From Syntrophorhabdaceae bacterium (GTDB lineage: Bacteria > Desulfobacterota > Syntrophorhabdia > Syntrophorhabdales > Syntrophorhabdaceae): a stretch of DNA of 39,765 nucleotides. The DNA lies in assembly GCA_036504895.1 (NCBI GenBank), contig DASXUJ010000029.1:1-39765 (forward strand), written 5' to 3'. The notes under the pieces were generated by a model. The model was given only the letters and a program-made list of their open reading frames with translations, was not told the DNA's origin and made no database searches. This document shows, in pieces, positions 27,773-32,530 of the stretch; position 1 is the first letter of the stretch, and the number at the start of each line of letters is the position of its first letter. The position numbers and the translations under genes are program-made.

Positions 27773-28152
27773 CTCTCCTCCTTTACCTACCGGACTCCAA
27801 AGACCCTCGCGGAAAAGCCGGAGGCATGTTTCTATGATCCGATGTTTAACTATAAACACTCGGTTTTTTTATTTCAACGGGTCGAACAACGACTTTTCGA
27901 CCTCCCTTCCGGTTTCTTGAGCTTCTTTACCCGGGAAAGAGCCGACAGCTCACATGTCTTTCCAGGTAGCATCCAATGTATAGTAATCGGCCGTATCTGT
28001 CAATAATTTAGGTAAATGTCCCCGTTTTTTTAACTTATACGATATTTATTCTCTTTATGGATTAAATTGCGACTAATATCTTCAAGGCAATTTAGGGGAG
28101 TGAACAAAGTCCGGTCGGAAGAGTTTTCCCTGACATTTGGTCGCCATTCCCC

Positions 28153-28181
28153 TTGACAAGGCATTGAAATTGCGTTATTAT
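28153..28181 (+). promoter_or_regulatory. Strong sigma70-type promoter of the aminotransferase leader
   Basis: Perfect TTGACA (28153-28158), exactly 17 bases, then TATTAT (28176-28181). The expected start is about 28188, the A of the leader-peptide ATG, so the leader mRNA may be leaderless. Confidence 0.8.
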
Positions 28182-28187
28182 TTCCCC

Positions 28188-28262
28188 ATGAACCGGGTAA
28201 CGGCCATCTTTGGCTTTTATTATTACTTTAGGAGCTCGCACCCGGGCATAATTTTGCTTTGA
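28188..28262 (+). CDS. Leader peptide rich in Phe and Tyr codons (24 aa)
   Basis: Short frame from ATG 28188 to TGA 28260-28262. Its core reads IFGFYYYFR: Phe codons at 28209, 28215 and 28227, Tyr codons at 28218, 28221 and 28224, so six of seven consecutive codons are aromatic. The end of the frame (GIILL and stop) lies inside the 5' arm of the antiterminator hairpin. This is the classic form of an attenuation leader such as pheL upstream of pheA in enterobacteria (established knowledge). No Shine-Dalgarno is present; the predicted transcription start coincides with the ATG. Expected role: a ribosome stalling when charged tRNA-Phe or tRNA-Tyr is scarce lets the downstream aminotransferase genes be transcribed. 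Confidence 0.75.
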   Translation: MNRVTAIFGFYYYFRSSHPGIILL

Positions 28263-28306
28263 CATAAGCAAAAAGCCATGGGTGCAAAAGGCCCCATGGC
28301 TTTTTT
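28238..28306 (+). promoter_or_regulatory. Attenuator: antiterminator and intrinsic terminator sharing one arm
   Basis: Antiterminator: GCACCC (28238-28243) pairs with GGGTGC (28280-28285), enclosing TTTTGCTT (28252-28259) paired with AAGCAAAA (28266-28273). Terminator: AAAAGCCATGGG (28271-28282) pairs with CCCATGGCTTTT (28293-28304) and ends in six T. The two structures share 28271-28282 and cannot coexist. A ribosome at the leader stop would mask 28252-28259 and favour termination; one stalled on the Tyr codons would leave it free. Confidence 0.75.
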
Positions 28307-28312
28307 AGTATT

Positions 28313-28343
28313 AAAGCCATGGCATAAGGCCATGGCTTTTTTT
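28313..28343 (+). terminator. Second intrinsic terminator in the aminotransferase leader
   Basis: AAAGCCATGGC (28313-28323) pairs with GCCATGGCTTT (28329-28339) around a 5-base loop and runs into seven T. It lies only 6 bases after the first T-tract and 18 bases before the gene start, reusing the same GCCATGG core. Confidence 0.75.
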
Positions 28344-28361
28344 CGTTTCAGAGGAGGAGCG

Positions 28362-29558
28362 ATGATCATTTCGAGAGACATTGAACGGCTCATAAAGGAT
28401 CAGGAAGGCTGGACCCGGAGGATGTTCGAGGAAGGCATCAGGATTAAGAAGCTTTACGGGGAGAACTCAGTATACGATTTTTCTCTCGGCAATCCCGATA
28501 CCGAGCCGCCCGAAGCACTCGGCAAGGCGCTCGTGGAGGCGGTTCTGAACCCCGCCACCGGAATGCACCGGTATATGTCCAACAACGGCTATGAGGATGT
28601 GCGCGAGGAGATCGCCCAATATCTGGCCGAAGACAGGAGCCTTCCCTTCACCTCTTCCCACGTGTTCATGACTGCCGGCTGCGCAGGCGGGCTCAATATG
28701 ATCTTCAGGAGCATCATGAACAGGGGCGATGAAGTGATCGTGCCGAGCCCTTTTTTCTGGGAATTTAAAAATTATGTCCACAATGCGGGCGGGGTGCCCA
28801 GGTTCGTCGAGACCAACCTCGATTTTCAGCTCGATATCGGCAACATCGAAAAAGCGATCACACCAAAGACCAGGGCCGTGCTCATCAATAGCCCGAATAA
28901 TCCCACGGGAGCGGTCTATAGCGAGGAGAGCTTGAAGGAGCTTGCGAAGCTCCTCTACCAAAAGAGGAGTGAGACAGGCCGCGAGATTTTTATCATCGCC
29001 GACGAGGCGTACCGGAAGCTCGTATACGACGGCATGACCTTGCCTAATCTCTTTAAGATCTATGACCTGGTTCTGGGTGTCACTTCCCATTCCAAGGACC
29101 TCGCCCTGGCAGGGGAGAGGATCGGCTATATCGCAATTTCGCCGGAGATAAAGGATTTTCAGCTCCTCGTGTCGGCCCTGACTATTACCATAAGGACCCT
29201 GGGCTTCGTAAACGCCCCCGCCCTCTTCCAGAGGATCGTGGGAAAATTCCAGAGAAATTCGGTCAGTATCGCCGATTATGAGAAGAAGAGGGATCTCCTC
29301 TATGACACCCTGATCGATGCGGGCTATGAATGCGTGAAGCCCACGGGCGCGTTTTACATGTTCCCCAAATCTCCCATACCTGATGAGCTTGAATTCGTGA
29401 GGGCCCTCCAGCAGGACGAGAGGATCATGGTGGTGCCCGGAAGGGGTTTCGGCAGGGAGGGTTATTTCAGGATTGCCTATTGCGTCCCCTTCGAGAAGGT
29501 GCTCGGCTCTCTCGACGGGTTCAGGAATATTGCGAAACGATATATTGAAAAGGGGTGA
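28362..29558 (+). CDS. Class I/II PLP aminotransferase, first of a tandem pair (probably aromatic amino acids)
   Basis: Fold-type I aminotransferase of 398 aa (COG0436/AspC-like), starting at ATG 28362 behind GAGGAGGAG. Motifs are FSLGNPDTEPP, GMHRYMSNNGYEDVREEIA, TAGCAGGLN, NSPNNPTGAVY (about 176-186), IIADEAYRKLVYDG, the PLP-lysine block SHSKDLALAGERIGY (Lys about 245) and a C-terminal YFRIAYCV with the substrate-carboxylate Arg. It transfers amino groups between an amino acid and a 2-oxo acid. An in-frame extension to 28278 runs through the terminators and is rejected. The leader peptide rich in Phe and Tyr suggests a role in Phe/Tyr synthesis (inference). Three bases separate it from its paralogue. 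Confidence 0.88.
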   Translation: MIISRDIERLIKDQEGWTRRMFEEGIRIKKLYGENSVYDFSLGNPDTEPPEALGKALVEAVLNPATGMHRYMSNNGYEDVREEIAQYLAEDRSLPFTSSHVFMTAGCAGGLNMIFRSIMNRGDEVIVPSPFFWEFKNYVHNAGGVPRFVETNLDFQLDIGNIEKAITPKTRAVLINSPNNPTGAVYSEESLKELAKLLYQKRSETGREIFIIADEAYRKLVYDGMTLPNLFKIYDLVLGVTSHSKDLALAGERIGYIAISPEIKDFQLLVSALTITIRTLGFVNAPALFQRIVGKFQRNSVSIADYEKKRDLLYDTLIDAGYECVKPTGAFYMFPKSPIPDELEFVRALQQDERIMVVPGRGFGREGYFRIAYCVPFEKVLGSLDGFRNIAKRYIEKG

Positions 29559-29561
29559 TCC

Positions 29562-30746
29562 ATGCCGGTATCCAAAAGTATCTCAGAATCTATGAAAAGC
29601 TCTTCCTGGATAAGGGCTATGTTCGAAGTGGGCGAAAAGCTGAAAAAGGAGTTCGGTCCGGAAAACGTCTTTGATTTCACTCTTGGCAACCCGATCGTCG
29701 AACCGCCGGCAAAGCTGAAGGAGGAGCTGGTGAGGATAGTATCGTCCGACATCAGGGGAATGCACCGGTACATGACGAACAGCGGATACGTTGAGGTGCG
29801 GGAAGAGATCGCGGCCTTCTATAGAGAGAGGAATGGTCTCGCCTTCACCAGTAACCATATCATTATGACCGTTGGGGCGGCGGGGGGCATCAACGTGGCC
29901 CTGAAGGCACTCCTCGATCCGGGCGACGAGGTGATCGTTCCCTGCCCCTATTTCGTGGAATTCAGGTTTTACATCGAAAACCATGGCGGCGTGATCAAGC
30001 TTGTGGATACGCGCGATGACTTCCACCTCGATGTGGAGAAAATAAGAGAGGCGATCACGGAGAAGACGAAGGCCATAATCGTGAATTCTCCCAACAACCC
30101 CACCGGGGTGGTGTACGACGAAAAGGAGCTCAAGGAGCTGGCCCACCTGCTCAAGGAAAAAAGACGGAAAGGCCAGAGGATCATATTGATCTCCGATGAG
30201 GCCTACAGGAAGATCATCTATGACGGCATCGCCTACCCCGATATGTTCAAATTGTACGAAGATACGGTGACCGTCACGTCCCACTCCAAAGACCTCGCCC
30301 TTCCCGGCGAAAGGATAGGCTATATCGCCGTGTCGCCCCTTCTCAGCAATGTGAAGACCTTTATCGATGCCGCCATATTCGCAAACAGAATACTCGGGTT
30401 CATCAACGCCCCGGCCATGATGCAGCGTCTTGTGGGAAAATTCCAGAAGAACAGCGTGGATATCATGGATTATCAGAGAAAGCGCGACGCCGTCTACACT
30501 ATGCTGGTCGATGCGGGGTTCGAGGTGGTAAAGCCCATGGGCACCTTCTATATCTTTCCCAAATCTCCCATCCCTGATGATATTAAATTCGTGAGGACCA
30601 TGCAGAAACACCACATTCTCGGAGTTCCCGGCATAGGCTTCGGCAAAGCGGGATATTTCAGGCTCGCCTACTGTGTGGATATGGAAGTCATCGAAGGATC
30701 ACGGAGATATTTCAAAGAGATCGGAGAGTTGCTCCATCGTAAATAG
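29562..30746 (+). CDS. Class I/II PLP aminotransferase, second of the tandem pair
   Basis: Paralogue of the preceding gene (394 aa), alike along its whole length: FTLGNPIVEPPAKL, GMHRYMTNSGYVEVREEIA, TVGAAGGIN, NSPNNPTGVVYDEKELKELA, ISDEAYRKIIYDG, SHSKDLALPGERIGYIAVSP (Lys about 243) and YFRLAYCVD. The ATG at 29562 follows the previous stop by 3 bases, with GGGGTGATCC as the ribosome site. The pair looks like an old tandem duplication kept under one attenuator, perhaps with split substrate ranges (aromatic versus aspartate/other). The last 35 bases overlap the 3' end of bioD on the opposite strand. Confidence 0.88.
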   Translation: MPVSKSISESMKSSSWIRAMFEVGEKLKKEFGPENVFDFTLGNPIVEPPAKLKEELVRIVSSDIRGMHRYMTNSGYVEVREEIAAFYRERNGLAFTSNHIIMTVGAAGGINVALKALLDPGDEVIVPCPYFVEFRFYIENHGGVIKLVDTRDDFHLDVEKIREAITEKTKAIIVNSPNNPTGVVYDEKELKELAHLLKEKRRKGQRIILISDEAYRKIIYDGIAYPDMFKLYEDTVTVTSHSKDLALPGERIGYIAVSPLLSNVKTFIDAAIFANRILGFINAPAMMQRLVGKFQKNSVDIMDYQRKRDAVYTMLVDAGFEVVKPMGTFYIFPKSPIPDDIKFVRTMQKHHILGVPGIGFGKAGYFRLAYCVDMEVIEGSRRYFKEIGELLHRK

Positions 30747-31443
30747 CTTCTACGTCAAGATTCGTTGCCGCCATACGGCCGAGCCGGTCAAGGTCGGCCC
30801 CTCCGTCGCCAAATCCTTCGAGGTAGGGCATGATGCCGAGGAGGGGCACGGGCAGATACTTGCGGAGCATCCCGGGGTTCGTCCGGGTCGCTACGTCTGA
30901 AGAACCTTCGGAATCGTTGAGGATTACCCCTATCGTCCTTATCCCCTCGGATTCAAGAGAGCGGCAGGTAAGGAGGGTATGGTTGATCGTACCGAGACCG
31001 AGCCGCGCCACCACCACCACGGGCAGGGACCATTTTTTCATCAGGTCCTGAAAGAAGAAATTCTCTTTTATGGGCACGAGGATGCCCCCCGCCCCTTCCA
31101 CAATCGTAATATCATGGTTTTTCACGATATCCCTGCAGATTCTCTCAGTAGCGTCCAGATCTATCCCTTTCCCCTCCTCCAGGGCCGCCGCCTCGGGGGC
31201 CAAGGGTTTTTGGAATGTACAGGGGTTTATGGATGCGAGGCTGTCGCGGGAACCTGAGGCATCTTTCAAGGACTTCGCGTCGCATGGGAAAAATTCAGTC
31301 CGGTCCAGAGGCAAGCCTGTCTCGAAAGGCTTCATCACCCCCACTGAAAGTCCTTTTATTCTTGAGAAATAGGCGGCGAGGCTCACCGATGCAAGGGTCT
31401 TGCCCACACCGGTATCAGTTCCGGTGACAAAAAGGGCCCTCAT
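30712..31443 (-). CDS. bioD: Dethiobiotin synthase
   Basis: BioD (243 aa) closes the ureido ring of dethiobiotin from 7,8-diaminopelargonate, CO2 and ATP. Visible are the P-loop FVTGTDTGVGKTLAS (about 5-19), KPFETGL with the substrate-contact Lys, DLDATERI, IVEGAGGILVPI (about 114-125) and VVARLGLGTINHTLLT. No other biotin genes are in the window. The ATG lacks a clear Shine-Dalgarno. It is 52 bases downstream of the DUF350 gene, itself after rex, so all three may share a redox-controlled transcript. Its 3' end overlaps the aminotransferase gene by 35 bases. Confidence 0.92.
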   Translation of the reverse strand: MRALFVTGTDTGVGKTLASVSLAAYFSRIKGLSVGVMKPFETGLPLDRTEFFPCDAKSLKDASGSRDSLASINPCTFQKPLAPEAAALEEGKGIDLDATERICRDIVKNHDITIVEGAGGILVPIKENFFFQDLMKKWSLPVVVVARLGLGTINHTLLTCRSLESEGIRTIGVILNDSEGSSDVATRTNPGMLRKYLPVPLLGIMPYLEGFGDGGADLDRLGRMAATNLDVEAIYDGATLRSL

Positions 31444-31714: not shown

Positions 31715-32356
31715 TCAGTTTGACAGGTAATAGACGAGATTGTCGAGTGCCGATGTAAAAAAGAGATTCCGGAGTTTCACGTTTTTGGGTACCGTCACAG
31801 GGGAAGGCGAGAAATTGAGAATACCTTTCACATTGGCATCCACAAGGAGGTTGGCCACTTTTTGCGCCTCACTGGGAGGGGTCGTAATAATCCCTATTTC
31901 CACGCCCCGCGTCTTGACTACCTCCTTGAGGGCGTCTATATGGAGAATCTCCACAGGCCTCCCCATCCGCTCCGAGATATGGCCGATTACTTTCGCCGGA
32001 TCGATATCGAAGGCGGCTACGATCTTATAGTTCTGTTTCAGAAAATCCTTGTATACCAGGAGCGCGCTGCCCATGTTGCCCACGCCCACCACCGCAATCT
32101 TCCATTCCCGGTTAATGCCCAGTATTTCTTTTATATTGAACTTCAGCTCCTTGACATTATACCCCATGCCCCGGACGCCGAACTCGCCGAAATAGGCGAA
32201 GTCCTTCCTCACCTGAGCGGCATTTACATTGCACATGTTCGCAAGCAGGGCGCTCGATGCCACCTTTTCATTCTTGGTCTCAAGGTCTTCCAGGCATTTC
32301 AGATAACTGGAAAGTCTGCGTATCGTCGCTTCAGGAATTTTTGCGTATTTAGCCAT
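31715..32356 (-). CDS. rex: Redox-sensing transcriptional repressor Rex
   Basis: Rex (213 aa from ATG 32356) is a dimeric repressor that leaves DNA when NADH rises. The N-terminal winged helix (about 1-75: IPEATIRRLSSYLKCLEDL, then CNVNAAQVRKDFAYFGEFGVRGMGYNV) is followed by the NADH Rossmann domain with VVGVGNMGSAL (about 87-97), FDIDPAKVI and the C-terminal domain-swapped helix SALDNLVYYLSN. Length and motifs are normal. A GTG 9 bases upstream is an alternative start. A weak TTGAAT-N17-TACATA promoter can be drawn upstream near 32395-32425; I see no clear Rex operator. Confidence 0.95.
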   Translation of the reverse strand: MAKYAKIPEATIRRLSSYLKCLEDLETKNEKVASSALLANMCNVNAAQVRKDFAYFGEFGVRGMGYNVKELKFNIKEILGINREWKIAVVGVGNMGSALLVYKDFLKQNYKIVAAFDIDPAKVIGHISERMGRPVEILHIDALKEVVKTRGVEIGIITTPPSEAQKVANLLVDANVKGILNFSPSPVTVPKNVKLRNLFFTSALDNLVYYLSN

Positions 32357-32530
32357 TATCAGCACCCGCGCGTGAAATCACTTAAGTTTCCTTTACTTCT
32401 ATGTAACAGTTCTCAACGGCAAATTCAAGAGAAAAATTTAACAAGCTCCGGCATGTGATGGCCGGCAGCCCGTTGCTTTACGGTTAAACTTGATACATTA
32501 TTCACTATTACAGAAGTTTTAAGGAGGTTT

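Follow-up and report, generated by a model that had tools for sequence, protein, structure and literature searches.

Within a 39,765-nucleotide stretch of DNA from a Syntrophorhabdaceae bacterium (GenBank assembly GCA_036504895.1, contig DASXUJ010000029.1, positions 1 to 39,765; hereafter, the window) lie two tandem aminotransferase genes, and directly upstream of them are a promoter, a short reading frame dominated by phenylalanine (Phe) and tyrosine (Tyr) codons, and a series of overlapping hairpins that we interpret as a transcription attenuator (Table 1). The two enzymes belong to the same family, are 55% identical, and are encoded 3 nucleotides (nt) apart in one operon; the nearest relative with a solved structure is 3ele, an amino transferase without a specific name. 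The first gene is preceded by GAGGAGGAG. The nearest genes upstream of the leader are on the minus strand and point away from it, and the plus strand shows this promoter alone, leaving no other upstream gene that could use the terminators, as a first-pass annotation of this DNA had argued.

That annotation had also described a sigma70-like promoter, a 24-codon frame with six aromatic codons in a core of seven, and paralogous aminotransferases downstream, all of which are borne out. The leader is the sole short ATG frame in the window with at least 6 aromatics in 7 codons, and such a frame arose in 102 of 20,000 first-order Markov simulations of positions 28001 to 28361. Its stop codon lies inside the 5′ arm of an antiterminator formed by GCACCC/GGGTGC plus TTTTGCTT/AAGCAAAA, and the 3′ arm is shared with an intrinsic terminator (AAAAGCCATGGG/CCCATGGCTTTT followed by T6), likewise as annotated. 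A second terminator, which the annotation did not discuss, follows at 28313 to 28343. We number the segments such that regions 2 and 3 form the antiterminator, 3:4 is terminator 1, 5:6 is terminator 2, and 4:5 is a possible relay pairing; by complementarity, region 5 could pair with region 4 (28292 to 28302) as well as with region 6. Both terminator hairpins contain the self-complementary CCATGG, and the leader RNA of the window folds with a z score of −5.15 relative to shuffles.

Table 1. Positions of the leader elements, the regulated genes, and their neighbors in the window
Feature	Position	Strand	Basis or remark
sigma70-type promoter, TTGACA-17-TATTAT	28153-28181	+	11/12 consensus matches
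Predicted transcription start	at/adjoining 28188	+	predicted from −10 spacing
Leader peptide frame MNRVTAIFGFYYYFRSSHPGIILL plus stop, 24 codons	ATG 28188 to TGA 28260-28262	+	probably leaderless mRNA
Regulatory codons TTT GGC TTT TAT TAT TAC TTT (Phe/Tyr)	28209-28229	+	core FGFYYYF
Small hairpin GCTCG-CACC-CGGGC, start of region 2	28234-28247	+	possible pause/protector hairpin
Region 2, antiterminator 5′ arm (GCACCCGGGC + TTTTGCTT)	28238-28259	+	
Region 3, antiterminator 3′ arm and terminator 1 5′ arm (AAGCAAAAAGCCATGGGTGC)	28266-28285	+	
Terminator 1 (3:4), AAAAGCCATGGG/CCCATGGCTTTT then T6	28271-28306	+	
Terminator 2 (5:6), AAAGCCATGGC/GCCATGGCTTT + T7	28313-28343	+	
PLP-dependent aminotransferase 1, NF005305/PRK06836 family, 398 amino acids, first regulated gene	28362-29558	+	hidden Markov model (HMM)
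PLP-dependent aminotransferase 2, NF005305/PRK06836 family, 394 amino acids	29562-30746	+	HMM
Dethiobiotin synthetase-like gene	30712-31443	−	motif only
Rex-type regulator-like gene	31715-32365	−	motif only

The same arrangement is found in 38 genomes of the class Syntrophorhabdia (phylum Thermodesulfobacteriota), in which the relatives of the window are Syntrophorhabdus and allied genomes. Aminotransferase 1 is encoded in 44 of 46 genomes of the order, with aminotransferase 2 adjacent in nearly all of them, and 38 of 44 upstream regions match a pattern that combines TTGACA, region 2, region 3, and the terminator 1 arm. Because this pattern requires the TTGACA, GCACCC-like, and CCATGGG-like motifs, their invariance in the 38-sequence alignment (e.g., TTGACA in 38 of 38) partly reflects how the sequences were chosen; no such choice was made on the downstream arms, the −10 spacing, or the aromatic codons. 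Among the six regions left unmatched, the leader is nevertheless present in L048 (with GCTATGGGTGC) and in L079, where the contig ends before the promoter, and the other four (L053, L058, L062, and L085) are apparently cut by contig ends. Recurrence across 38 genomes settles that the arrangement is real, and the original observation is thus confirmed.

Across these genomes the aromatic positions of the leader stay Phe or Tyr while undergoing synonymous T/C changes and Phe-Tyr swaps, and purine third bases are nearly absent from them: when the TTN and TAN codons among the six final codons of each of the 38 leaders are counted, the third base is T in 137 cases, C in 73, G in 2, and A in none. 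The codon lying three codons before CAC-CC(N) is Phe TTT in 37 of the 38 leaders (TTG in L054). The last aromatic codon is followed by three further codons before region 2 begins, a distance close to what a stalled ribosome would cover, and the leader stop lies inside region 2 or directly 3′ of it in nearly all leaders.

The hairpins are conserved as pairings too, although the covariation and own-versus-swapped counts that follow are uncorrected for relatedness. For terminator 1, 99.5% of cells in the 38 sequences are paired, with two pairs changed on both sides; for terminators 1 and 2 together, the values are 95.2% and seven pairs, and none of 500 shuffles is as good. The antiterminator plus 4:5 is 91.7% paired, with four pairs changed on both sides, every one of them in 4:5. 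The outer stem of 2:3 is nearly invariant within the class and so is little informative by itself, whereas the inner hairpin differs widely in sequence (TTTTGCTT..AAGCAAAA, GTGCC..GGCAC, CTGCCCTT..AAGGGACAG), and in leaders that end at HP plus stop, the stem is GCACCCATG/CATGGGTGC. Even so, the region 2/3 segment folds as an antiterminator and beats shuffles in 38 of 38 genomes, with a mean folding z score of −4.6. Beyond the main family, 2:3 stems covary over 25 sister or distant loci, among which 23 stems are distinct (e.g., GGTCACCCAT/ATGGGTGACC, GGTCTGCCCAC/GTGGGCAGACC, and TGCCCCTGTG/CACGGGGGCA). When the window is added to these 25, the match of each region 2 to its own region 3 beats swapped combinations, with 0 of 10,000 permutations reaching it. 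The small hairpin at the start of region 2 is partly conserved, with 26 to 38 of the 38 sequences pairing, depending on the pair.

The sister loci, found with a covariance model of the element and with downstream genes identified by HMM, place other codons on the same scaffold. Before DAHP synthase genes, leaders with tryptophan (Trp), Tyr, and Phe codons (e.g., GYWYFYW) occur at about 17 of 20 loci, with no such leader at L139, L155, and L156. A TrpB-like gene is preceded by Trp-only WWW, WWWW, or WAWWW leaders at no fewer than 22 of the 30 loci read, and the window's own genome carries the Trp-run leader MLKDARISKKNWWWWLQV before such a gene; these Trp-only leaders have a distinct region 2 (GTGTGAAACCGT-type) and were recognized by their codons, position, and CCATGG-type terminators only. 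A PRK07777/PRK08912-like aminotransferase has a leader with six to eight Tyr codons in 11 of 11 orthologues, and this run is absent from three paralogues of 49 to 51% identity (L198 to L200). Chorismate mutase/prephenate dehydratase also lies downstream of the element (L108), and an MBL-fold metallo-hydrolase has a Phe-only or Phe-dominated leader (L107 and, in the window's own genome, L119 at G000:C40:23383-23539). Elsewhere in the phylum, outside this class, the element occurs with Phe/Tyr or mixed codons before genes whose sequences resemble those of PRK06836 aminotransferases and DAHP synthases, and before ADTH synthase-like and 2-isopropylmalate synthase-like genes recognized by motif. 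Among genes of known product, leader codon content thus accords with that product.

Locus by locus, leaders of these kinds are distributed as follows. Trp/Tyr/Phe leaders (e.g., GYWYFYWRNAHP) before DAHP synthase in the class are those of L098, L099, L102, L106, L109, L110, L113, L115, and L137 to L154 (L139 excepted); Trp-run leaders (WWWW, WAWWW, WIWWW) before the TrpB-like gene are those of L118 (G000:C117) and L157 to L184; and six to eight mostly consecutive Tyr codons before a PRK07777/PRK08912-like aminotransferase are found at L100, L101, L103 to L105, L114, L130, L133, L135, and L187 to L197. A Phe-rich leader stands upstream of a thiolase-like gene (L112), and a Phe/Tyr leader stands before a 527-amino-acid GNAT-domain protein (L127, G024:C38). 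Two kinds of covariance-model matches were not counted on score alone: weak matches over positions 54 to 139 only, most of which correspond to generic CCATGG-type terminators in tandem, and matches opposite a known element, which are palindromes read backwards.

The −10 box of the window ends 6 nt before the leader ATG, leaving no room for a transcribed Shine-Dalgarno sequence, and the leader is therefore probably leaderless. When the ATG downstream of the −10 box is taken wherever another ATG overlaps the box, 36 of the 38 loci have an in-frame ATG 6 to 10 nt beyond the end of the −10. With L109 set aside, sister loci of the class mostly have spacings of 6 to 9 nt (MBL leaders, 12 nt), and on this basis leader mRNAs in Syntrophorhabdia are probably leaderless, with start sites predicted from the promoters. 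Leaderless leader RNA has been documented for Sinorhizobium meliloti trpL (PMC7298713). In other classes, with weak promoter calls included, spacings are 12 to 53 nt in nearly all loci examined (7 nt in L232), and some of these loci have AGGAG or AGGA before the leader. For instance, at L217 and L219 to L223 (family f10, of another class), the same Phe/Tyr element has a promoter that ends 19 to 22 nt before the ATG, in some cases with AGGA or AGGAG, which suggests that the leader switched between Shine-Dalgarno-led and leaderless translation within the phylum.

We propose, with a probability of about 0.9, that the window element is a ribosome-mediated transcription attenuator that would read charged tRNA-Phe and tRNA-Tyr. 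The proposal draws on the elements themselves, their conservation, the mutually exclusive pairings, and the codon identity of sister loci. The checks that the first-pass annotation had suggested, for conserved aromatic codons and for conserved, covarying hairpins in relatives, gave positive results, and codon identity at sister loci tracks the downstream pathway; the interpretation in that annotation is supported, at the level of sequence. What we infer beyond this is a course of events that runs from the transcription start and leaderless translation to ribosome stalling and the 4:5 relay. Transcription would begin at or near the A of the leader ATG, and the resulting leaderless mRNA would be translated by a ribosome. 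With Phe and Tyr plentiful, the ribosome would reach the stop codon and cover region 2, such that 3:4 and 5:6 could form and transcription would end after about 118 or 155 nt. When either tRNA-Phe or tRNA-Tyr is short of its amino acid, the ribosome would stall on FGFYYYF, three codons upstream of region 2, so that region 2 could pair with region 3. Region 4, thereby released, would pair with region 5 and so disable terminator 2 as well, and both aminotransferase genes would be transcribed. From the leader codons, we infer that these enzymes are aromatic aminotransferases of Phe/Tyr synthesis. Stepwise folding of the window RNA is consistent with this course: when the ribosome is stalled, 2:3 is the first to form (P of about 1), followed by 2:3 plus 4:5 (P of about 1), and when the ribosome is at the stop codon, 3:4 holds throughout. 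Nearly every locus that has a second hairpin has a region 4 complementary to its region 5, and across the wider set of loci, the own 4:5 pairing outscores swapped ones in 5,000 of 5,000 permutations.

Several results weigh against this account. In the main family, own 4:5 pairs are only marginally better than swapped ones (in 4,638 of 5,000 permutations, with 362 reaching the own value). At equilibrium, 3:4 plus 5:6 is the preferred fold of the full-length RNA under all scenarios, and as soon as terminator 1 has been synthesized, 3:4 is already favored (P ≥ 0.91) despite a stalled ribosome; the ON state of the attenuator therefore depends on kinetics. Without translation, the leader is predicted to fold into the antiterminator first, which differs from his (PMC4046918). 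Two of the 38 genomes fall outside the leaderless spacing (18 and 2 nt), G032 (L043) is without terminator 2, and, compared with L082, the L054 leader has lost its stop (TGA to TGG) and its last Phe codon (TTT to TTG). The changes in L054 might reflect decay or sequencing error.

The alternative that deserves the most attention, although we consider it unlikely, keeps the attenuator and drops the relay, so that terminator 1 alone would be controlled, terminator 2 would be a back-up or a duplication product, and 4:5 complementarity would follow from the likeness of the two terminators. The CCATGG common to both hairpins, the marginal 4:5 match in the main family, and the survival of G032 with one terminator all fit such a scheme. 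Nevertheless, if terminator 2 escaped control, it would stop transcription of the genes even in the ON state, and four loci (L103, L105, L127, and L231) have no U-tract after hairpin 1, which means that terminator 2 alone can act there and that only the relay, or a link of the 4:5 type, could regulate it. Moreover, 4:5 shows double-sided changes where 5:6 is mismatched (L046 and L074), and L216 keeps a nonpalindromic core (GCCACGGG/CCCGTGGC) in all four arms.

Other explanations dispense with the tRNA-reading ribosome altogether. A nascent-chain arrest peptide resembling TnaC, sensing free Phe or Tyr with a C-terminal His-Pro as its arrest motif, might be imagined because most leaders retain HP and several stop directly after it; however, CACCC in frame must encode HP and is explained by its pairing with GGGTG, HP is lost where region 2 changes (GHSC, GSLMPL, GLPVV) with pairing kept, and runs of six to eight Tyr codons and pathway-matched codon swaps would be left unexplained, which makes this reading very improbable. 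We give similarly little weight to the idea that the promoter and hairpins produce a free small RNA with no control over the downstream genes. The predicted terminated RNA of 118 or 155 nt would look like one, but the element immediately precedes the aminotransferase pair in 38 genomes and, at other loci, genes of the aromatic pathway, and its antiterminator overlaps its terminator. Least credible is an RNA-level ligand sensor, whether riboswitch or T-box, in which the reading frame would be incidental. Strong structure and conserved sequence are what such a sensor would have, yet an aptamer leaves the codon pattern and the pathway-matched swaps unexplained, and no Rfam family, T-box included, matches at gathering score.

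The element can also be compared with known systems. At gathering and permissive thresholds alike, Rfam gives no significant cis-regulatory match in the window and no T-box match there, nor is there a T-box at the loci of seven more distant relatives (mostly Firmicutes homologues). The first-pass annotation had likened the arrangement to pheL-pheA, and the principle stands: as in pheL-pheA and pheST of enterobacteria, a Phe-rich leader and an antiterminator/terminator switch precede genes assigned to Phe biosynthesis. The likeness does not extend to family membership, as evidenced by a score of 14.2 bits against RF01859 Phe_leader (threshold, 55; E value, 7.5), and the window element differs in its predicted sensing of both Phe and Tyr, in its two terminators and probably leaderless mRNA, and in its predicted control of an aminotransferase pair in another phylum. 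In having two terminators, it is closer to the his operon relay than to pheL. The Salmonella his attenuator alternates A:B, C:D, and E:F with B:C and D:E (PMC4046918), and the proposed relay would share its six-segment topology, along with a run of regulatory codons; in contrast, the window-type 3:4 hairpin is usually itself a terminator, giving two in series, the codons are aromatic, and an untranslated leader is predicted to give the ON state and not the OFF state. Like S. meliloti trpL-trpE(G), the leader RNA here would begin at the leader ATG, although that system is Trp only and regulates other genes in an alphaproteobacterium (PMC7298713). Leader-peptide control of amino acid genes outside the gammaproteobacteria is also shared with Actinobacteria, in which one study found Trp, Cys, and Leu leader elements and none for Phe or Tyr genes; for other bacteria, it names T-boxes as the RNA regulators of Tyr genes (PMC1262725). 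In the literature searched, a scope outside which most subscription journals fall, there was no Tyr-only ribosome-mediated attenuator and nothing relevant on DAHP synthase attenuators or attenuators in this phylum.

Apart from these comparisons, an ATG in region 3 opens a frame (28278 to 28361) in phase with aminotransferase 1, which together would make 426 amino acids; this extended frame is not kept in G031, where the open frame is 397 amino acids only.

We lean, though only slightly, toward a broader view in which Thermodesulfobacteriota possess a homologous family of attenuators for aromatic synthesis, built on one scaffold and made specific by codon sets (Phe/Tyr, Trp/Tyr/Phe, Trp, Phe, or Tyr alone), whose leaders became leaderless in Syntrophorhabdia and whose two serial terminators are switched by a 2:3 plus 4:5 relay. 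Leader-peptide attenuation of Phe/Tyr genes would thereby extend to a phylum with no such report in the literature searched. One scaffold recoded for different amino acids amounts to a set of natural codon-swap experiments, and a Tyr-only attenuator becomes testable. The element also points to a function in Phe/Tyr synthesis for PRK06836-family aminotransferases, which have so far been named generically, and it may offer a clean case for studying how leaderless translation keeps up with RNA polymerase during attenuation.
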